43,422 nt of DNA, from the NCBI GenBank assembly GCA_012729815.1, contig JAAYCJ010000075.1, forward strand, positions 1 through 43,422, read 5' to 3'. This document shows positions 15,670 through 40,413 of this stretch, piece after piece. The position numbers were made by a program, and so were the translations under genes. The notes under the pieces were generated by a model. It did not search any database, was not told where the DNA came from, and was given only the letters and a program-made list of their open reading frames with translations. This stretch comes from Phycisphaerae bacterium (lineage in GTDB: Bacteria > Planctomycetota > Phycisphaerae > JAAYCJ01). Every line of letters starts with the position of its first letter. The first letter of the stretch is position 1.

Positions 15670-16833
15670 GTGGCCAGAGACAGCGAGGCGACGGACCAGG
15701 AAAACGCGGGCCAGATCGTGGACTTGTGGCTGGACCGATCCATCCAGGTGAAGGCCAGCGATCTGCACTTCGAGCCGGACGCCGAGGGTCTGGCCGTCAA
15801 GATCCGGATCGACGGCATCCTTCATCTGGTCAAGCGGGTCAACCAGGAATTGGGCAAGCAGATCATCTCGCGTCTGATGGTCATGGCCAGCCTGCACACG
15901 CACCTGCAGAAAAAACCCCAGGAAGGCCGGGCCGACTACTCGTCGAGCCGAACCGGCGGCAAGCCCATCAACATGCGGGTCTCGACGTTTCCCACCGTCT
16001 GGGGCACCCGCGCGGTGGTCCGCTTCTTTCACGGCTTGGAGCGAATCCCGCAGCTCGATCAACTGGGCTATAACGACAAGACGCTCGAACTGCTCAAGAA
16101 AATGGCGTATCAGACACAGGGAATGATCCTGATCGCCGGCCCGGCGGGCAGCGGCAAAACCACCACCATCTATTCGTTTCTGCATCACATCCTGGGCGCG
16201 CGGCCGGGGTGCAGCGTCATCAGCATCGAGGATCCGGTCGAGTACAGCGTCGAGGGCATTACGCAGGTGCAGATCGGCCAGTACGCCGGCGGACTGACCT
16301 ACAAGGACGCCCTCAAGTCGCTGTTGCGGCAGGATCCGCAGGTCGTGGCGATCGGCGAGGTCCGCGATCCGGACACCGCCGCCATCGTCCTCGAAGCCGC
16401 CCTGACCGGACACCTGCTGATCAGCACGATCCACTCGCCGACCGTGGCCGGCGCGGTGCTGCGCCTGGTGGACATGGGCCTGGCCCCCTACCAACTGACC
16501 GGCGCCCTGACCGGCATTGTCGCCCAGCGCCTGGTGCGACGCCTCTGCACGAACTGCCGGGTCGCCACCAACGATCCGAACGAACCCTACGTCTCGGGCG
16601 GATGCACCAAGTGTTTCAAGACCGGCTACCGCGGCCGGATACCCGTGGCGGAAGCAGCCCACATGACCAAGAGCTTTCGCCAGGCGATCATCCAGGGCCA
16701 GGACGTCAGCGGTATCCAAGCCGCCCTCAAAGCCGACGGCCTGCCCACGTTGCGAGAGGACGCCCACCGCCTGGTGCGAAGCGGCATCACCTCCAGCAAC
16801 CAAGTCACCGAGCTTCTCCACAGCCTGGAGTAG
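15670..16833 (+). CDS. Short GspE/PilB-family secretion ATPase
   Basis: A 387-residue hexameric-type ATPase of type II secretion/type IV pilus systems. Walker A GPAGSGKT is at 157-164, an Asp box EDPVEY around 187-192, and Walker B VVAIGEVRD at 225-233. Histidines of the LTGHLLISTIH block lie at about 246-255. A zinc knuckle CTNC (293-296) pairs with CTKC (312-315), a feature of GspE/PilB rather than PilT. It lacks the long N-terminal MshEN-type domain, so it is about 150-200 residues shorter than normal GspE/PilB. No pilin, secretin or GspF neighbour is present. The start is GTG 15670 with AGGAG upstream. Confidence 0.85.
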   Translation: MARDSEATDQENAGQIVDLWLDRSIQVKASDLHFEPDAEGLAVKIRIDGILHLVKRVNQELGKQIISRLMVMASLHTHLQKKPQEGRADYSSSRTGGKPINMRVSTFPTVWGTRAVVRFFHGLERIPQLDQLGYNDKTLELLKKMAYQTQGMILIAGPAGSGKTTTIYSFLHHILGARPGCSVISIEDPVEYSVEGITQVQIGQYAGGLTYKDALKSLLRQDPQVVAIGEVRDPDTAAIVLEAALTGHLLISTIHSPTVAGAVLRLVDMGLAPYQLTGALTGIVAQRLVRRLCTNCRVATNDPNEPYVSGGCTKCFKTGYRGRIPVAEAAHMTKSFRQAIIQGQDVSGIQAALKADGLPTLREDAHRLVRSGITSSNQVTELLHSLE

Positions 16834-16870
16834 GCGCCCACCGGTCGGATTCCCCCACGTGAAGCACTGC

Positions 16871-16902
16871 GGCGCGCCCCTTTGGGGTCGCGGTTTGTTT
16901 TT
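16871..16902 (+). terminator. Rho-independent terminator after the secretion-ATPase gene
   Basis: CGCG-CCCC (16873-16880) pairs with GGGG-(T bulge)-CGCG (16884-16892) around a TTT loop, followed by TTTGTTTTT (16894-16902). It is a compact GC-rich hairpin with a T-run, closing the BFN-ATPase transcript. Confidence 0.8.
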
Positions 16903-16922
16903 GGAGAGCAGAAAGTAAAGCG

Positions 16923-16951
16923 TTGACGAAAACCGGGGAAATTTATAGACT
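16923..16951 (+). promoter_or_regulatory. Predicted promoter of the acyl-adenylating-enzyme homologue
   Basis: TTGACG (16923-16928), 17 nt, TAGACT (16946-16951). The good spacing and near-consensus -35 lie just after a terminator. The promoter overlaps an in-frame TTG at 16923 that would otherwise be read as the gene start, so translation must begin downstream of it. Confidence 0.6.
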
Positions 16952-17012
16952 GTGTGTACTGGAGGCGTTGAAGCATCATTTCGGCTCACAAGCGTGCGAG
17001 GCATACGCATTG

Positions 17013-18719
17013 ATGTCGGGTGAGGCACGGTTATTCCGTTGCATCAAATCGAATCGAGCGGTGAAGTTTACTCCCCCGGCGACCAGTCCGATCCACGCCC
17101 TGATGCTCTGGGCGCGTCGCCGTCCGCGGGACGCCGCGCTGATATTTTCACTTCCGGAAAGGCACGAACCCTTCGTCCGGACCTATAGCGAGCTGTTTTC
17201 ACGGGCGTTCACCCTCGCCGAATCGCTGGCGTCGCTGCCGGAAGGGCTGATCGGGATACTGGGAGGGCAGCACGGCCTGAGCGTGGAGGCGGCGCTGGCG
17301 GCGATGCAGGCGCGTCGCCCATTTGCGTTGATCAACCCGCTGAGCCAGGCCTTCGAGCACGAGGTCCAGTGCCTCCAATCCCTGCACCCGTTGGGCGTGC
17401 TGATCCCCTCGCTGGACGAAATGCCGGACCTGCTGGTGGACCGGTTGGGTGAAATCACGCGCGAGTTGGGAAGGGCGAACGTCTGGTCGGCCGGCCCGAA
17501 TCCCCTGGCGGCCAAGGATCTGCTCGCGGAAGACCAGGGGTCGCGGCAACCTCAGGATGCTGTGGACGATTCGCTGTGGAATGAACCACTGGTCTACCTC
17601 AACGGCCGGGATGAAGACGAGCACTGCCACGCCTACGTGTACACCCCGCTGGCCCTGGCGGCCAGCGCCCTGTCGGTGGCGCAGTGGCTGCAGATTAAAG
17701 AGGGCGTGCGGGTGCTATGCGGCGTGGAGCTCACCCGCTGCGCGGGCTTTGTGCCGGCGCTGGCGGCGGTGATGTCGGGCGCCGGATGCGTCCTGCCGCA
17801 TCGCCTCAAGGGGCACGAGTTCTGGCAGGTCGCCAGCCAGAGCGGCGCGCACGTGGCGAGGGTGGCGCCGGAGGTGATCGAAGACCTGCTCGAGAATCCC
17901 GGACGGGCAAGCGACATCAGCTCGAGCGGGCTCAAGTACATCATCACCGACGCGGGCGGCCTGCCGACGCGGGTGTCGCTGGCGTTCATCGAGACGTATG
18001 ACCTGCCGCTGATCAACTGTTTCGGCACGTCGGCCACCGGCGGCTACGCGTTGGGCGTGCCGCTGAACCTGTGCCGGCGCGAGTATGAACTGGCGCTGCG
18101 GGATAGCGCGGCGGGTGTGGAACTGGAACACTGCAACGTGAAGGTCGAGGAGGATCCGCAGATCACCGCGAGCGCCAACGACCGCCGCGAGGGCTACCTG
18201 GCGGTGCGGGGCAACGGCCTCTCGACGGGGTACTGGGACGGCCAGACGCTGTCGACCTGGCAGACGCCGTGGCTTCGCACCTCGCATCTCGGCGCGGTCT
18301 GCGGCGGGCAGGAACGGGAGTGCTTCAGCGTCCAGGGGCGAGCGTCCGAGGCGCTGGTGGTACAAGGCTACCGGATCTGGCCGGCGCAGATCGAGCACTC
18401 GCTGACCGAGACCTTTGCCTTTCTGGAGGATTGCGTCGTGCTGGCGCGGCCGGACGGGCGGGGACGAAATCAGCTCTGCGCCGCCGTGGTGCTGCCGGAG
18501 GAACTGGACCGCCACCGCCAGTCGGAGCTTCTGGCCCAGATGGAGGCGCGGGTCCGGGCCGGAGGCGTCGAAGGCCTGAGCGAACACGCCCGGCCGCACC
18601 AACTGATCGCCCTCTCGGGACCGATGCTGCCGCGTGATCCGGACGGCCGGCCCAACCGCCAGCAATTGCTGGACGTCATCAACGGCTTTGCCGCGGGGCG
18701 AGGCCTGGCCGCCTCGTAA
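17013..18719 (+). CDS. ANL-superfamily (acyl-CoA synthetase/AMP-ligase) homologue with eroded motifs
   Basis: About 568 residues with the overall order of an adenylate-forming enzyme. An FGTSATGGYALGVP block stands where the A5 aromatic-Gly-x-Thr motif is expected. LRTSHLGAV stands at the TGD motif, and GRASEALVVQGYRIWPAQIE matches A8 well. Two catalytic elements look wrong: the Ser/Thr/Gly-rich phosphate loop is replaced by YVYTPLALAASALS, and the C-terminal catalytic-Lys region reads PRDPDGRPNRQQL with Arg. The protein may therefore bind rather than activate an acyl group, or use a changed mechanism. ATG 17013 is the most likely start (TTG 16968 is possible). It stands alone, convergent with the mannosidase gene 15 nt away. 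Confidence 0.7.
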   Translation: MSGEARLFRCIKSNRAVKFTPPATSPIHALMLWARRRPRDAALIFSLPERHEPFVRTYSELFSRAFTLAESLASLPEGLIGILGGQHGLSVEAALAAMQARRPFALINPLSQAFEHEVQCLQSLHPLGVLIPSLDEMPDLLVDRLGEITRELGRANVWSAGPNPLAAKDLLAEDQGSRQPQDAVDDSLWNEPLVYLNGRDEDEHCHAYVYTPLALAASALSVAQWLQIKEGVRVLCGVELTRCAGFVPALAAVMSGAGCVLPHRLKGHEFWQVASQSGAHVARVAPEVIEDLLENPGRASDISSSGLKYIITDAGGLPTRVSLAFIETYDLPLINCFGTSATGGYALGVPLNLCRREYELALRDSAAGVELEHCNVKVEEDPQITASANDRREGYLAVRGNGLSTGYWDGQTLSTWQTPWLRTSHLGAVCGGQERECFSVQGRASEALVVQGYRIWPAQIEHSLTETFAFLEDCVVLARPDGRGRNQLCAAVVLPEELDRHRQSELLAQMEARVRAGGVEGLSEHARPHQLIALSGPMLPRDPDGRPNRQQLLDVINGFAAGRGLAAS

Positions 18720-18734
18720 AGACCCGCCGGCGGC

Positions 18735-21464
18735 TCAGGCGATCGCCAGCGTCACGATCTTCCGCGACTCGATCTCAAGCGTGATGGCCTTCCCATTCCG
18801 CGCCGGGCCCTCATCCAGAACCGTCTCATCGAGCCTTGCGAACCGGACCTGCTCGAACGGGAAGTTGAGGGTCAGGACCACCTTCTGCGTTTCGCCGGTG
18901 TAGTTTGTCAGCCGCAGAACGGTGGATTGACCGTCTTCGGCGGGTTTGAGGGCGTCGATCATCACGCCCTGGGCGTCGAGCGACAGCAACGACATCGATC
19001 CATCGCCGGCGGCCAGCGAGGGCAGCGGCGTGAACGTCTTGAGGCCGGCCAGGAACTGCTGCGAAAACTCCAGGACGCGGGCCGCCGGCCACGACGCGGC
19101 GTGCGGATAGACGGCCAGATCGAACTCGTAACGGCCGAAACACTGGGCTTCGGGAGTCGCCAGGACCGGACCGGCGTGCTCGCCACGGGTCAGGAAGTGA
19201 CCGCGGCTGAGGCGTCCGACGCACCGCAGCAGCGTGATCGCGATCGCCCGCGCGGCGTCGCGGGTGACTTCGAACTCGGGCAGGCCGCGGGCGAACACGG
19301 CCAGGCCGTTTCGCTCATCGGCCATGTCCACAAAGCCGTGATGCGGATACTGCTCCGGCTGATCCTCCGTCCAGACCTTCGGATCGACCGGCTCGACCAT
19401 CACAGGCAGCGAGTCGACGTCGAACTGCTGCAGGGCGCTGACCCGCTCAGCGGCCAAGCCCGTCGGGAACATCGCGCGGAGACGATGGTCGCGGGCCTGG
19501 TTGTCCACGGTCACCTTCACGCGGATGAATCTGGCCGCCTTGCCCAGTGTGACCTCGGCGCGGATGGGCAGTTCGACCCGCCGCGCGGCGCGATCGGCGA
19601 AGAACTCGCCGTTGCGGTCGCGCAGCTCGAGCCCCTCACGGTCGATCGCCGCCTCGGCGGGGATGCTCAGGACATACTCGATCCCCAGCGTGGCCGCGCC
19701 GGGCCCGTCATGCAGGACGCTGATCTGGGCCGGTCCGCCGAGGGTGGTGACCACCTGGTCCTTCATCGGCGGGCTGTAGTTGTACTCGTCGCCCACGTCG
19801 CCGCCGTCCTCGAAGTACAGCAGATTCTGGAACGTCTTGCCCGAGGCCTTGTCGGTGACGGTCAGCGTCCCGTTCGGCTCGACCCGCACCGTCAGGTGCT
19901 CGTTTTCCATCGTCCGCTGATCGGTCAGCAACGAGACCGTCCGGGCCGGATGGGCGTTGAGCGGCATGACTCGGAACTGGCGATAGCCCATCGCCGGCAG
20001 GTCGTCGGCCCAGAATCGCACGCGGGCCTTGACCGCGTTGCGGAAGGGCGCGCACTCGCGGACGTTGGGATAATACTCGAGGCCGTCGGTGACGCCGACC
20101 AGTTCGGCGGCGATCGACGTGCCGTCCTGGGCGGCCAGGCGCACGCTGCGGATCGTCTTTTGCGGATCGAAACGCGCGCCGTCGGCGTATTCGATCGGCT
20201 CCCACTCGGTCTTGACCAGCGGGATATCGGCCTCAACCAGATCGGAAACCGCGAACGGCATCGGATTGAACACGGCGATGCGATAGTCCTTCCGCTCGGA
20301 CGCCTCGCCGCAGGTCAGCTTGTGGAACACACGCCGGCAGACGCTGTCGCTGATGTCGCGGCACCACTGGAACCGCGTCATCATCTGCTGGTGGACGCGG
20401 TCGATGCTGCAGCCGCCGATCGAGTCGTGCGGCTGATTGCGCAGGAGCCACATCCACGCGTTGTCCAGGAAGCCGCGGCGGTCGCCGCCGAACATCAGCC
20501 GGTCGATCGCCGCCATCGGCTCGGCCCATCGCGCCATCTCGATCTCGCAGTCGGCGTTGGCCTGTTTGAGATAGATACGGGCGGATAGAATACCGTTGAG
20601 CACGACGGCGCCGGTCTTCTCGTGGCGTTTGGTGTCGCGGAGCATGCCATCGAACGTGGGCCACTCGGAGCACTGACGCTCGCGCAGCAGGTCGATGTAG
20701 TCCTCGAAACTGCCGTGCCGGAACTCCATGTCGTCGTACTCGCGGTTCAGATCGTCGATGATCTTCACCACGTCCGGGTCGACCGGCGCGTGGTCGACCC
20801 CGTGCATCAGCAGACCCAGCCCGCTGCGGGAATAGGCGCGGTGAAACTCGATCCGCTCGCGAAACAGGTCCAGCTTCTCCCGATACGTCTTCTTGTCGCT
20901 GGTGCAGACGTTCCCGTAGCCTTCGACCATGTGACAGCCGAATACCTTCGTCCCGTCGGGACTCCGCCAGAACATCTCCGGCGCCGGCCGTTCCAGGCCC
21001 AGACCTCGCCAGAAGACGATGTTATCGACGCCAAAACCAAGCAGAATCTGCGGAATCTGGGCGACGTGGCCGAAGCAGTCGGGCAGGTAGCCGACGTTGG
21101 GGAAATGCCCGAGCCTCTCGGCGATCCGCTTGCCGCGAAGCAGGTTGCGCACCAGGGCTTCGCCGCTGACCAGGAACTCATCGGGGAGGATGTACCACGG
21201 TCCGACCAGAAGCCGGCGGCTGGCCACGTGTTGGCGGAGCCGCTCGAGGGCGTCGGGCTTGATCTCCAGGTAATCCTCAGCCACCACCGCCTGCCCGTCG
21301 AGGTTATACGCGGCGAAACGGGCATCCTTGTCTTCTAGGAGTCCGGCTACCTCATCGATCAGATCGACCAGCCGCATGCGGAACTCCTGGAACACGGCGT
21401 ACCATTCGCGGTCCCAGTGGGCATGCGAGGCGACGATCATCGTGTGTTTGGTCGGCTTGCTCAT
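18735..21464 (-). CDS. Glycoside hydrolase family 38 alpha-mannosidase
   Basis: A 909-residue GH38 enzyme, which removes alpha-linked mannose with retention using a zinc ion. Zinc and substrate motifs are visible: HAHWDREW at 14-21 and LPDCFGH at 127-133, whose Asp129 is the expected nucleophile. A NQPHDSIGGCSID block follows in the middle. The C-terminal two-thirds is the beta-rich domain set typical of the family. There is no signal peptide, so it should act in the cytoplasm, as mannosylglycerate hydrolases and other bacterial GH38 enzymes do; the substrate cannot be told. AAAGGTGAG lies just before ATG 21464, and a TATAAT at 21505-21500 is a likely -10 with a poor -35. Confidence 0.92.
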   Translation of the reverse strand: MSKPTKHTMIVASHAHWDREWYAVFQEFRMRLVDLIDEVAGLLEDKDARFAAYNLDGQAVVAEDYLEIKPDALERLRQHVASRRLLVGPWYILPDEFLVSGEALVRNLLRGKRIAERLGHFPNVGYLPDCFGHVAQIPQILLGFGVDNIVFWRGLGLERPAPEMFWRSPDGTKVFGCHMVEGYGNVCTSDKKTYREKLDLFRERIEFHRAYSRSGLGLLMHGVDHAPVDPDVVKIIDDLNREYDDMEFRHGSFEDYIDLLRERQCSEWPTFDGMLRDTKRHEKTGAVVLNGILSARIYLKQANADCEIEMARWAEPMAAIDRLMFGGDRRGFLDNAWMWLLRNQPHDSIGGCSIDRVHQQMMTRFQWCRDISDSVCRRVFHKLTCGEASERKDYRIAVFNPMPFAVSDLVEADIPLVKTEWEPIEYADGARFDPQKTIRSVRLAAQDGTSIAAELVGVTDGLEYYPNVRECAPFRNAVKARVRFWADDLPAMGYRQFRVMPLNAHPARTVSLLTDQRTMENEHLTVRVEPNGTLTVTDKASGKTFQNLLYFEDGGDVGDEYNYSPPMKDQVVTTLGGPAQISVLHDGPGAATLGIEYVLSIPAEAAIDREGLELRDRNGEFFADRAARRVELPIRAEVTLGKAARFIRVKVTVDNQARDHRLRAMFPTGLAAERVSALQQFDVDSLPVMVEPVDPKVWTEDQPEQYPHHGFVDMADERNGLAVFARGLPEFEVTRDAARAIAITLLRCVGRLSRGHFLTRGEHAGPVLATPEAQCFGRYEFDLAVYPHAASWPAARVLEFSQQFLAGLKTFTPLPSLAAGDGSMSLLSLDAQGVMIDALKPAEDGQSTVLRLTNYTGETQKVVLTLNFPFEQVRFARLDETVLDEGPARNGKAITLEIESRKIVTLAIA

Positions 21465-23624: not shown

Positions 23625-24458
23625 ATGCCGGACAAGGAAATTCTGTTGGGGCACAGCCCGGATTCGGACGACGCCTTCATGTTCTACGGGTTGACCAGCG
23701 GCAAGGTGCCGAGCGAGGGCTACGTCATCAAGCACCTGCTGTCCGACATCGAGACGCTGAACCAGTACGCCACCAACGGCAAGCTGGACCTGACCGCCAT
23801 CTCGTTGCACGCCTACGCCTACGTCAAGTCGCATTACGCCCTGATGGCGTGCGGGGCGAGTATGGGGATGGGATACGGTCCGATCATCGTGGCGACCAAG
23901 CCGATGACGATTGAGGAACTCGAACGGGCGACCATTGCCGTGCCGGGCACGATGACCACCGCGTTTCTCGTGCTGCGGATGGTGCTGGGGCATTTCGACT
24001 ACCAGGTGATCCCATTCGACAAGATCCTGTTCCAGGTGGCTGGAGGGTCGGTCGACGCCGGACTGATCATTCACGAGGGCCAGGTGAACTACGGGCAGAT
24101 GGAGTTGCTTAACGTGCTGGACCTGGGCAAGTGGTGGTCCGACCAGACGGGGCTGCCGCTTCCGCTTGGGGTCAACGCGGTCAAGCGCGATCTGGGTCCG
24201 GCGGTGATGAAGGACCTCTCGCGTCTGGTGTTGCGGAGCATCGAGTACGGCATGGAGAACCCGGAGGAGGCCCTGGACTTCGCCCAGGACTACGCGCGCG
24301 GGCTGGACCGGCAGCAGCTCGAGACGTTCGTGCGCATGTACGTAAACCAGTGGACGCTCCGGTGCGGGCCGGAAGGAACGAAGGCCATCAACGAGTTGCT
24401 CTACCGGGCGGAGACCGAGCGGCTGATCCCGCCGACTCTCCCGGTCGATTTCGTGTGA
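23625..24458 (+). CDS. mqnD: 1,4-dihydroxy-6-naphthoate synthase (menaquinone, futalosine route)
   Basis: A 277-residue protein of the MqnA/MqnD family. It opens with HSPDSDDAFMFYGL, a phrase typical of MqnD, and contains LLSDIETLN, TAISLHAYAYV, VPGTMTTAFLVLRM and DAGLIIHEGQ. MqnD cleaves cyclic dehypoxanthine futalosine to 1,4-dihydroxy-6-naphthoate, the fourth step of the futalosine pathway. The other mqn genes are not in the window. This is evidence that the organism respires with menaquinone made by the futalosine route. A glycosyltransferase gene follows after 19 nt and is probably co-transcribed. Confidence 0.92.
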   Translation: MPDKEILLGHSPDSDDAFMFYGLTSGKVPSEGYVIKHLLSDIETLNQYATNGKLDLTAISLHAYAYVKSHYALMACGASMGMGYGPIIVATKPMTIEELERATIAVPGTMTTAFLVLRMVLGHFDYQVIPFDKILFQVAGGSVDAGLIIHEGQVNYGQMELLNVLDLGKWWSDQTGLPLPLGVNAVKRDLGPAVMKDLSRLVLRSIEYGMENPEEALDFAQDYARGLDRQQLETFVRMYVNQWTLRCGPEGTKAINELLYRAETERLIPPTLPVDFV

Positions 24459-37224: not shown

Positions 37225-38130
37225 TCACAGTGCGCGGACCGGTACACGCGTGGCGGCCTCGACGACCGAGAGCCAGCGGCTGACATCCTTCGCGTCGGCG
37301 GAGTTGATGCCCGCAGACGGATCACAGGCGCCAAGTCGCGCAACCTTGGAACGGCCGAAGGGATGATACGGGTGGAGGTCGACCGCAATCACGTTCTTCA
37401 GAGAATTCGCCACGTCGGCGATGCCGCGCAGGTGACCCTCATCGTCATTGACGTCGGGAATCAACGGGCAGCGCAGGATGATCCTCCCACCGGCCGCGTC
37501 GATGGCCGCAAGGTTGGCCAGGATGGGCTCCAGCGGCCCGCCCGTCGTCTGAAGATGACGCTCCGGATCGGTATCCTTCAGATCGTAAAGGAAGAGGTCC
37601 ACGCCATCGAGCAGTTCCATGAAGCTGCCGGTTGGCGCAAAGCCGCACGTGTCGAGACAGGTGTGCACGCCGGCCTCACGGGCGGCCCGCAACAAGGCCC
37701 GGGTGAACTCGAACTGCATCATGGGCTCGCCGCCGGAGATGGTGACCCCGCCGCCGCCGTCGTAAAAAGGTCTGTCCCTGACCACGTCGGCGAGCACGTC
37801 CTCGACGGTCATCTCCCGCCCGATGACCTCGATCGCGCCGCTGTAGCATCCTTCGGCACAGGCGCCGCAGCCGCCGCAGAACTCTCGAAGCAGAACGTGC
37901 CGCCCGTTCCGCAAAACGTGCGCCGCGCCCGGACACGCCTCAAAGCACCAGCCGCAGCCGATGCATCGGTCGGGAATGAAGGAAATCTCCCGCTCCCGTT
38001 TCTGCGACTCGGGATTGTGGCACCACAGGCAACGCAGCGGACAGCCTTTGAGGAACACCGTCGTCCGGATGCCCGGCCCGTCGTGTAGCGAAAACCTCTG
38101 AATGTCGAAGATCGTGCCGGTGATGGCCAT
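37225..38130 (-). CDS. Glycyl-radical-enzyme activating protein (radical SAM)
   Basis: A 301-residue radical SAM enzyme that installs the glycyl radical on its partner. The cluster motif is CPLRCLWC (C30, C34, C37). Two bacterial ferredoxin-type clusters follow: CIGCGWCFEAC (C56, C59, C62, C66) and CGGCGACAEGC (C85, C88, C91, C95), as in the activases of non-PFL glycyl-radical enzymes. GGVTISGGEP and the late LHPYHPFGRSK complete the family pattern. It starts 6 nt after the glycyl-radical-enzyme stop, with GGAGG upstream, so the pair is one transcript. Confidence 0.93.
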   Translation of the reverse strand: MAITGTIFDIQRFSLHDGPGIRTTVFLKGCPLRCLWCHNPESQKREREISFIPDRCIGCGWCFEACPGAAHVLRNGRHVLLREFCGGCGACAEGCYSGAIEVIGREMTVEDVLADVVRDRPFYDGGGGVTISGGEPMMQFEFTRALLRAAREAGVHTCLDTCGFAPTGSFMELLDGVDLFLYDLKDTDPERHLQTTGGPLEPILANLAAIDAAGGRIILRCPLIPDVNDDEGHLRGIADVANSLKNVIAVDLHPYHPFGRSKVARLGACDPSAGINSADAKDVSRWLSVVEAATRVPVRAL

Positions 38131-38136
38131 GAAGCA

Positions 38137-40317
38137 TCAGCCTCCGCCCTGCTGCTCCGTCCGGGCGATGATCATCTCCTGCCACTCGCGCGTCAACGTG
38201 GCGAAGCGGGCCGACCAGCCGGAAATGCGAACCGAAAGATTCGGGTACGCCTCAGGATGCTCCTGGGCGCGACGGAGCAGTTCGGTATCCACCACGTCGG
38301 TCTGCATGAAGACGCCGCCCAACGTGACGAAACTGCGCATCAGGCCGCTCAGGGCCTCCAGGCCGACTTCGCCGCGGACGCTGTCGGGAGCGATCTTCAG
38401 ATCCAGCGCGGTCCCGCCCGGCAGCCGGCCCAAATCCACCGAACAGTGCGAACGGATCACCGCCGTCGGGCCGCGCCGGTCCGTGCCCGGCGACGGCGAG
38501 AAATTCGCGGAAAGGATCGCGCCCGCCTTGTGGCCGGCGGCGCTGGCCGTCCGGTGCGAAAGGTAGTCCGAACCCTCGCGACCGAAGGTGCTGATCCCCG
38601 CCGGACGCAGCACACCGTGCCGCTCCCGGTGACGCCATACGTAGCCGGTGTAGTCGTCAAAGACCCGCCGCAGGAGGGCATCCGCTTCGACGCTGTCATT
38701 GCCCCAGAAGTCGAACCGGCTGCCGATCCGCCGACGCAGCACCTCCTGCCCCTCCCAGTTTGCACGCAGTACGGCGACAAACTCCGGCAGCGTAAACTCG
38801 CCGGTCTCGTAGACCAGACGCCGGATCACCAGCAGGCTGTTGGCCACGTCCGGCAGCCCGCCCGCATGCGGCGAGCAGACGGTGTATTTCGGCCCTCCCG
38901 CAAGATAGCCGCGCCCCTTCTCGATGCAGCCTTCCACCAGGAGGGAGGCCAGCGGCGCGGGCTGATCGTTGAAGAAACGCTCGTCCAACAGCCGATCCAA
39001 AACCGCCTCCAGCCGCCCGCGAAAGTCGGCGTACAGGGATTCGAAGTCCGCAAACGCCGGAGGCAGCGTCTCGCCCTCGGACGCGGAGACCGAAAGCCCG
39101 AGCGTCTCCTGCAGCAACCGCAGCGCGTCGAACGGCTGATAACCGAAGGCCGTCTTGCCGGGAATGATGACCTCCCAGCAGCCGTCGTTGGCGAAGTCGC
39201 GGGCCTCGGCCAGAGGATACCCGAAACCGGTCAGGGTCGGGATGATCCGCTCGTCGTTGTAGATCGCCACGATGCCCCCGCCAAGCCGCTGAATCGCGGC
39301 GATCCGATTGAGCAACCGCGACGGAGTCCGCGAATCGATCCGCACCGCGATCGGAAAATCGCTGATGTGAAGCTCCTCCACCACGTCCAGAACCAGATCG
39401 GTCACCTTGTTGGCGACGGGCCGTCCCGCCTCGTCCACGCCGGCCAGCACGATGTTCTGGTAGAACTGCGCGTCGCCGCTGCCCCGTCCTTCGGCCGTGA
39501 TCCACTCGCACCCCTTGATCCAGAAGTGTGCCACGAGTTCCCGCGCCTCATCGAGCGAGATCCGCCCCGCCTCCAGGTCCGCCCGAAGCAGCGGCCCCAG
39601 CATCTTGTCGAAACGCCCGATGCCGCTCCAGTTGCCGCACAACCGCTGAAAGTCCCACAGCAGCCACAGCGCCTGCACACCCTCCCGAAACGAGGCAGGA
39701 GGTTCCTCGGGCACGCGGCGCAGCGCCGCCAGCACCTCCATGTCATTCGACCGATCCGCGCCGCCCGCGCTCGCGATCCGCTCCTCCAGCAGCTTCACAT
39801 ACCGACCGTGCCAGATACCCGCGGCGTCGAGGCAGATACCCATCGCCTCCAGAAGATCGCGACCCTCCGCCTCCAGATCGCCTCGCGCCAGACGCGCGTC
39901 AATCTCAGCCCGAATGCCGCGATAGCCGATCCGCAGCGCTTTCTCAAAACCCAGCGTGGTGTGGCTGATCGAACTGAATTCCGTCAGCGGTATGCGGTGC
40001 CATGTCGCCTCCCTGAGCGTGGCCGCACCCGCCAGCTTCTCCCCGGGAAAATGGCGCAGCGGGGCATGCAGGGCGATCAACCGCACCGCCTCCGCCGCCT
40101 GCCGATGCGGCGACGGATTCCCAGCCAGAAACTCCGGCCCCAGGCCGAACGTCGCCTCGCCCATCGTCCGACCCACCGCACCGGACAGGTAGTGCGCCGC
40201 CAGTTCCCGCGTGGCCCGACTGAGCCTCGCTTGGCCACGAAAGGGCGTTGCCACGCCAAAGCCGGAACCTTTCAGACCCATAGCCGCTCGCTCGGCTCCT
40301 GATACCAACTCGCTCAT
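38137..40317 (-). CDS. Glycyl-radical enzyme of unknown substrate
   Basis: A 726-residue protein with both radical-chemistry hallmarks. The thiyl-radical Cys380 sits in NDGCWE, with the C-x-E arrangement (Glu382) found in eliminase-type enzymes such as choline TMA-lyase and glycerol dehydratase, rather than the Cys-Cys of pyruvate formate-lyase. The radical Gly700 is in RISGWSARF. The substrate cannot be assigned: the neighbouring GKTAFGYQPFDALR does not match a subfamily I know. It is oxygen-sensitive chemistry, so expression should be anaerobic. ATG 40317 is chosen, with AGGAG 9 nt before it; an in-frame extension to 40389 lacks a site. It is divergent from an AraC regulator. Confidence 0.9.
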   Translation of the reverse strand: MSELVSGAERAAMGLKGSGFGVATPFRGQARLSRATRELAAHYLSGAVGRTMGEATFGLGPEFLAGNPSPHRQAAEAVRLIALHAPLRHFPGEKLAGAATLREATWHRIPLTEFSSISHTTLGFEKALRIGYRGIRAEIDARLARGDLEAEGRDLLEAMGICLDAAGIWHGRYVKLLEERIASAGGADRSNDMEVLAALRRVPEEPPASFREGVQALWLLWDFQRLCGNWSGIGRFDKMLGPLLRADLEAGRISLDEARELVAHFWIKGCEWITAEGRGSGDAQFYQNIVLAGVDEAGRPVANKVTDLVLDVVEELHISDFPIAVRIDSRTPSRLLNRIAAIQRLGGGIVAIYNDERIIPTLTGFGYPLAEARDFANDGCWEVIIPGKTAFGYQPFDALRLLQETLGLSVSASEGETLPPAFADFESLYADFRGRLEAVLDRLLDERFFNDQPAPLASLLVEGCIEKGRGYLAGGPKYTVCSPHAGGLPDVANSLLVIRRLVYETGEFTLPEFVAVLRANWEGQEVLRRRIGSRFDFWGNDSVEADALLRRVFDDYTGYVWRHRERHGVLRPAGISTFGREGSDYLSHRTASAAGHKAGAILSANFSPSPGTDRRGPTAVIRSHCSVDLGRLPGGTALDLKIAPDSVRGEVGLEALSGLMRSFVTLGGVFMQTDVVDTELLRRAQEHPEAYPNLSVRISGWSARFATLTREWQEMIIARTEQQGGG

Positions 40318-40413
40318 TCCCTGCGTCTCCTGAGGGCCGGAACAGGCAAGACCCGCGCCCGGCCCGGAAAAGCTTCCTGAATATACCATACTCTGCCCAT
40401 ATCCATTAAAGCA

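Follow-up and report, generated by a model that had tools for sequence, protein, structure and literature searches.

Reports exist on the residues through which ANL enzymes handle ATP and on ANL domains that have lost them. In the available text of PMC8388817, the A3 motif is the P-loop, the A7 Asp and A8 Arg touch the ribose, A5 stabilises ATP and the A10 Lys touches the alpha-phosphate; mutants of the motifs were reduced 4- to 2000-fold or inactive. An amide bond synthetase with an A10 Lys-to-His mutation has been crystallised with an ATP analogue (PMC10804368, accessible portion). Degenerate domains have also been described. The FLD2 domain of DIP2 has degenerate A5 and A7 motifs, and its authors suggest, in the section of PMC9342972 available, that adenylation is not retained and that an unidentified function has been acquired. 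The A domain of module 3 of CysK, from the cystobactamid NRPS, is without the A10 Lys and loaded no L-asparagine, and the domain is retained (PMC7966384, as excerpted). As far as these excerpts extend, DIP2 FLD2 and the CysK A3 domain are, by analogy, precedents for degenerate but retained ANL domains.

Here we describe a gene in a window of 43,422 nucleotides, the whole stretch of DNA that was analysed. Its product is likely an ANL-superfamily protein without catalytic activity that selection has kept and that now serves in ligand binding or regulation, the roles we favour; a transferase function is possible but less likely. A literature search covering papers other than subscription ones found no description of this protein group. 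The features discussed below, in coordinates of the window, are as follows.

16923-16951, + strand: promoter-like site TTGACG-17-TAGACT, sigma-70-like, by consensus match only
17013-18719, + strand: gene of the pseudo-ANL protein, 568 amino acids, ATG start
17031-17048, + strand: N-terminal signature LFRCIK, residues 7-12, invariant in all three orthologs and containing Cys10
17595-17633, + strand: destroyed A3 phosphate loop, residues 195-207, YLNGRDEDEHCHA, placed by alignments
17640-17675, + strand: YTPLALAASALS, residues 210-221, the helix after the P-loop according to alignments and a low-confidence fold model
17727-17747, + strand: remodelled A4 region, residues 239-245, with clade-invariant Glu239, Cys243 and Gly245 (P, I and S in the intact sisters)
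18015-18047, + strand: A5 region NCFGTSATGGY, residues 335-345, with the A5 Glu replaced by Ala341 and a clade-invariant Cys336
18264-18296, + strand: A7 region, residues 418-428, with WLRTSHLG at 420-427 and the ribose-binding Asp replaced by His425
18333-18692, + strand: C-terminal lid domain, residues 441-560, with the ANL C-domain fold at pLDDT 61-84 in blocks of ten
18624-18668, + strand: A10 motif MLPRDPDGRPNRQQL, residues 538-552, with the catalytic Lys replaced by Arg546

The start at 17013 is MSGEARLFRCIK, and the ATG is supported because the first residues are kept in both aligned orthologs, as MSGEAKLFRCIK and MSEDRQLFRCIK. With the match to the ANL superfamily, this bears out 17013-18719 as a real open reading frame, as the first-pass annotation had it. 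Pfam AMP-binding (PF00501) matched residues 215-408 (E 2.9e-18), and PF13193 gave only E 0.059, below the cut-off. The best NCBIfam model was the long-chain-fatty-acid--CoA ligase PRK06187, at 87.6 bits against a cut-off of 476 bits; two intact sister proteins scored 324 and 318 bits, likewise under that cut-off. Both parts of the ANL fold, the AMP-binding domain and the C-terminal lid, are present. AlphaFold with a three-sequence alignment gave a mean pLDDT of 48.7, and the single-sequence fold a pLDDT of 33. Within the model the C-domain superposed on 1t5d (residues 439-558 against 396-504; Z 11.9, rmsd 1.9, 109 aligned). At its end the superposition runs with an offset of 54, so Arg546 would fall on position 492, taken here to be that enzyme's catalytic lysine. 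Only the C-domain (441-560) is modelled fairly reliably; the N-domain, with pLDDT 30-59 in blocks of ten, is too poor for pocket geometry. Foldseek with the whole model matched ANL enzymes at TM about 0.2, so nothing was learnt beyond the family. Judged from its sequence, the window protein is a member of the ANL superfamily, in the long-chain acyl-CoA/acyl-AMP ligase branch.

The gene lies between a type II secretion/pilus ATPase of the GspE/PilB type upstream (15670-16833, same strand) and a GH38 glycosidase downstream (18735-21464, other strand). A promoter scan of 16600-19000 found the single site listed above, where shuffled sequences gave a mean of 0.2, and this consensus match suggests that the pseudo-ligase gene is its own transcription unit. 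Around 16873-16901 a stem and T-run resemble a terminator by eye, but the scan did not list them, and no terminator is claimed. The ATPase was considered as a partner and rejected, as 179 bases separate the genes and the pseudo-ligase has its own promoter-like site. Searches with tblastn for the ATPase on the two ortholog contigs gave no match; one of these, in genome G001, stops just upstream of the gene. The ATPase carries CTNC...CTKC, and its TIGR02533 match starts at model position 109, with the N-terminal part absent. Elsewhere in the window are a PF02621 menaquinone biosynthesis protein (23625-24458), which presumably ties to the futalosine route, and, on the minus strand, a PFL-like glycyl radical enzyme with a Gly_radical domain (38137-40389). 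The latter adjoins a radical-SAM protein with ferredoxin domains (37225-38130, minus strand), probably its activase.

The first-pass annotation had proposed an altered phosphate loop, a missing C-terminal lysine and an intact A8 region. The loop is indeed destroyed, as YLNGRDEDEHCHA departs from (S/T)(S/T/G)G(S/T)TGxPK and has four consecutive acidic residues at 200-203, but its location had been wrong: YTPLALAASALS is the following helix. The low-confidence model has a strand at 194-196, a loop, a strand at 207-209 and a helix at 212-225. The register of the loop varies between alignments, none of which restores the motif. In the alignments the A3 loop of the orthologs reads YSSGRHGLPKG or YSPGHYHQPTG, and that of the intact sisters YTSGTTGxPKG. 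Two further losses went beyond that list. The A5 Glu is Ala341 and the A7 Asp is His425, and each canonical residue is present in 40/40 ligases of a comparison panel. The A10 Lys, present in 39/40 panel ligases, is missing as had been claimed, and Arg546 occupies its column within GRPNRQ (545-550). Of the seven lysines in the protein, the last is residue 377, which leaves no shifted lysine to take over the role. Alignment thus found neither an intact P-loop nor the Lys at a shifted position, and the other reading frames across A3, A5, A7 and A10 held no hidden canonical motif; a frameshift artefact is therefore not the cause of the losses. As for A8, the window protein retains Arg443, Gly452 and Pro457, so intactness holds roughly, although the A8 glycine is gone in both relatives (N, D).

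As the alignments show, the phosphate loop, A5 Glu, A7 Asp and A10 Lys are gone from the window protein, and the Gly/Pro scaffold and the lid domain remain. We infer that it forms no acyl-adenylate, and it probably binds no ATP productively, since four acidic residues occupy the phosphate site. Conservation of these changes among homologues, which had been proposed as a check, was found in part. The A10 Lys is absent from all three orthologs (R/H/R), but the other two keep some A3, A5 and A7 residues: the ortholog in genome G002 retains SSGxxGxPKG and the A7 Asp, with Asp at the A5 position, and that in G001 retains the A5 Glu and A7 Asp. By analogy with the Lys-to-His mutant structure, these relatives may retain nucleotide binding. 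A separate ANL protein of the panel, L023 from a related genome (G003:C22:5021-5752, minus strand), has the loop TAGSDAQPKG and Thr for the A10 Lys and keeps the A5 Glu and A7 Asp; from its sequence it is possibly an independent loss of adenylation.

The selectivity of the losses was assessed against the panel, made up of 40 further ANL proteins encoded in this genome and in related ones (40 of 60 loci). Excluded were the clade itself (L005-L008, L036, L037, L042, L043, L057, L058), wide stretches (L038-L041), duplicates (L045, L047, L050, L051) and transporter loci (L059, L060). Among the 25 panel columns with at least 90% conservation, the window protein matches 16, and the nine lost columns all belong to ATP-site motifs: A3 accounts for six, and A5, A7 and A10 for one apiece. 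Its match of 0.64 is below every panel protein, the lowest of which reaches 0.70 in a leave-one-out comparison. The G001 and G002 orthologs match 19/25 columns each, within the panel range; the A8 glycine and hydrophobic positions are among what they have lost, so the losses are not purely catalytic. At an 80% threshold the window protein matches 23/48, just under the lowest panel member (24/47), and the orthologs, at 27/48 and 26/48, are not under it.

Intact relatives were found outside the order. In a set of 392 genomes drawn from the phylum, near-full-length relatives occur in three of another family (f72), at E 1e-59 to 1e-66; a further genome (f96) has a more distant one (E 7e-38). A closer look at seven listed f72 genomes returned the same three (3/7 at E 1e-40). 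These relatives (L079-L081, in genomes G530, G501 and G469) have complete motifs: YTSGTTGxPKG, YGLTE, SGDLG and TGKV(K/Q)R. They share with the degenerate clade an N-terminal stretch and a C-terminal ARxxxGxxxxL insert, and differ from it in keeping every catalytic motif and in their downstream neighbour, which is a different conserved gene and not TauE/SafE. That following gene (L083 6836-8338, L084 4955-6316, L085 6635-8011) is 44-62% identical among the copies, and the L083 and L085 copies had no Pfam match at E 1e-5.

A maximum-likelihood tree was built from 47 proteins and 498 columns, after trimming the L081 frame of its initial 100 residues, which precede the alignable region. Support values, taken from the unrooted tree, were UFBoot 100 for the degenerate clade and a moderate 81 for its pairing with L079-L081. 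The stem of the clade is long (1.22 substitutions per site). An earlier tree without L079-L081 had placed the clade beside L017 and PaaK-like proteins; misplacement of this kind is frequent with long branches. The clade probably descends from an active ligase, with L079-L081 as its probable sisters. Parsimony would place the loss of the A10 Lys and the P-loop threonines on the stem, and the A5 Glu-to-Ala and A7 Asp-to-His changes in the window's line.

If the ligase chemistry is lost, part of it might still be in use. The protein could carry out the second half-reaction only, taking an acyl-adenylate or acyl-thioester made elsewhere and transferring the acyl group, for which neither the adenylation Lys nor the P-loop is needed. 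The A8 region shapes the thioester-forming state, and R443, G452 and P457 are retained in the window protein; in addition, residues 481-520 of the C-domain are the 40-residue block richest in invariant columns (18/40). However, the A8 glycine changes of both relatives count against such a transferase, His425 stands in place of the ribose Asp that would be expected to hold an adenylate too, and the neighbours scanned included no recognisable carrier protein gene. We regard this explanation as unlikely.

A second alternative arises from the residues that are newly invariant in the clade, which is defined by three sequences only. It has 143 invariant residues in 564 ungapped columns; 48 of these are common to all three intact sisters, nine to some and 86 to none, the last group including Cys10, Cys243, Cys336, Cys374, Cys474, Glu239 and Trp456. 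Position 243 follows the A4 position, which is His in 34/44 other proteins, and position 336 precedes the A5 Tyr/Phe. Both are presumably equivalent to substrate-pocket residues of 4-chlorobenzoate:CoA ligase. This pocket equivalence fits with the presence, among the PDB entries matched by Foldseek, of I303 mutants of the ligase with other ligands. A new enzyme or metal-binding protein could therefore be envisaged, in which Cys243, Cys336, Glu239 and the window protein's loop DEDEHCH serve metal or thiol chemistry. Five clade-invariant Cys are absent from the three intact sisters, two of them at or beside the former pocket if the presumed equivalence holds, and a His occurs in the loop of all three orthologs. 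Against this, the loop residues are not conserved among the orthologs, the N-domain model is too poor for distances, and the new Cys and Trp are suggestive only, because such residues are often conserved for structural reasons. The metal or thiol reading is accordingly doubtful.

Orthologs were found in all three genomes of the order examined, which represent one family and three genera. A scan of the genome contigs with the single protein as query found no relative, and a scan with an alignment as query found the two orthologs only; the assemblies are drafts, that of the window's genome having 367 contigs and that of G001 being 73% complete. Matches at E 1e-24 to 1e-30 came from 13 more of the 397 genomes of the class, and the proteins concerned, all in the panel, have canonical A5, A7 and A10 residues. 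A plasmid collection gave weak matches in 62 records, none reaching 80% query coverage. The three orthologs are 33-44% identical. Second codon positions of the three coding sequences are 0.60-0.70 identical against 0.25-0.26 by chance, and third positions 0.26-0.37 against 0.22-0.28; the protein is therefore constrained, with silent sites near saturation. A homologue without its catalytic motifs that is maintained in 3/3 genomes under codon-position constraint is in this evolutionary sense a pseudoenzyme; its non-catalytic function is putative. The earlier suggestion of a conserved protein that has lost ligase chemistry and become something else agrees with this retention, with the constraint and with the clade-specific invariant residues.

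The same data bear on whether the gene is a decaying pseudogene on its way to loss. Degradation has gone furthest in the window copy, which also has no TauE/SafE neighbour, but a full-length open frame persists in three divergent genomes under the constraint just described. From the common node, the window branch measures 1.05 substitutions per site against 0.80 and 0.89, so it is not markedly accelerated, and decay appears very improbable. An active ligase with an unorthodox site, using Arg546 for Lys and another loop for the phosphates, is hardly tenable: Arg is chemically near Lys, and the scaffold columns and C-domain fold are retained, but four ATP-site motifs are gone together, the loop is strongly acidic, and CysK module 3, without its A10 Lys, loaded no L-asparagine in the excerpted text of PMC7966384.

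We therefore return to the preferred reading, in which the protein binds a ligand or acts as a regulator. The remodelled pocket, with its clade-invariant Glu239, Cys243 and Cys336, would accommodate a small acid or some other ligand. Movement between N-domain and lid is typical of the ANL fold, and such movement could report pocket occupancy to a partner. In G001 and G002 the likely partner would be a TauE/SafE-family anion transporter encoded by an overlapping gene; in the window's genome it might be another of its TauE/SafE proteins or something else, since no TauE/SafE gene lies beside the pseudo-ligase there.

In G002 and G001, the stop of the pseudo-ligase overlaps the start of the TauE/SafE (PF01925) gene as TAATG, and the two transporters are 60% identical. 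The TSUP family, according to the available part of PMC5840216, has sulfate transporters as well as sulfite/organosulfonate exporters among its members; the authors of that paper hold that predicting TSUP function from sequence is not feasible. A protein search of the window's genome (G000) with the G002 transporter gave no match at E 1e-3. The TauE/SafE family model found two genes over the cut-off and one partial match there (contigs C223, C289 and C266), all on other contigs, so that none adjoins the pseudo-ligase and a conserved functional link is weakened. The G002 transporter has many homologues in the class (185/397 genomes at E 1e-30). At 18 further transporter loci (L061-L078, with flanks of about 1.5 kb), tblastn searches that used both orthologs and an intact sister as queries found no ligase, and the pairing is therefore special to G001 and G002. 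TauE/SafE was consequently rejected as a diagnostic partner, given its widespread homologues, the 18 loci without a ligase and the absence of a match to the G002 transporter from the window's genome. A more specific proposal is that of an order-wide ANL pseudoenzyme whose Glu239/Cys243/Cys336 pocket senses a sulfur-containing or metal ligand and regulates a TauE/SafE anion transporter. It is speculative and we give it little probability; if true, a ligase fold would have been turned into a transporter regulator, with the transporter co-translated in two of three genomes.

ANL enzymes are very common and are annotated by fold-level match, and the window protein would be named an acyl-CoA ligase despite its lost ATP site. 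The proteins described here form a natural series, from intact probable sisters through the less degraded G002 and G001 orthologs to the window protein, the most degraded, together with new invariant residues. This series lets one ask which parts of an ATP site are dismantled first and to what use the ligase fold is put later, and the transporter overlap in G001 and G002 offers a testable partner.

Overall, the window protein has in common with the long-chain-fatty-acid--CoA ligases of PRK06187/PF00501 the scaffold columns, the A8 region and the lid fold, and differs from them in the P-loop, A5 Glu, A7 Asp and A10 Lys, all of which it has lost. Like DIP2 FLD2, as described in the accessible portion of PMC9342972, it is an ANL domain with degenerate A5 and A7; in contrast, FLD2 is eukaryotic and fused to an active FLD1, whereas the window protein is bacterial and free-standing and has lost A3 and A10 too. 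With the CysK module 3 A domain, as far as the excerpt of PMC7966384 goes, it shares the absence of the A10 Lys in a domain that is kept, but the CysK domain sits in a multi-module NRPS, and the window protein is without a carrier domain.
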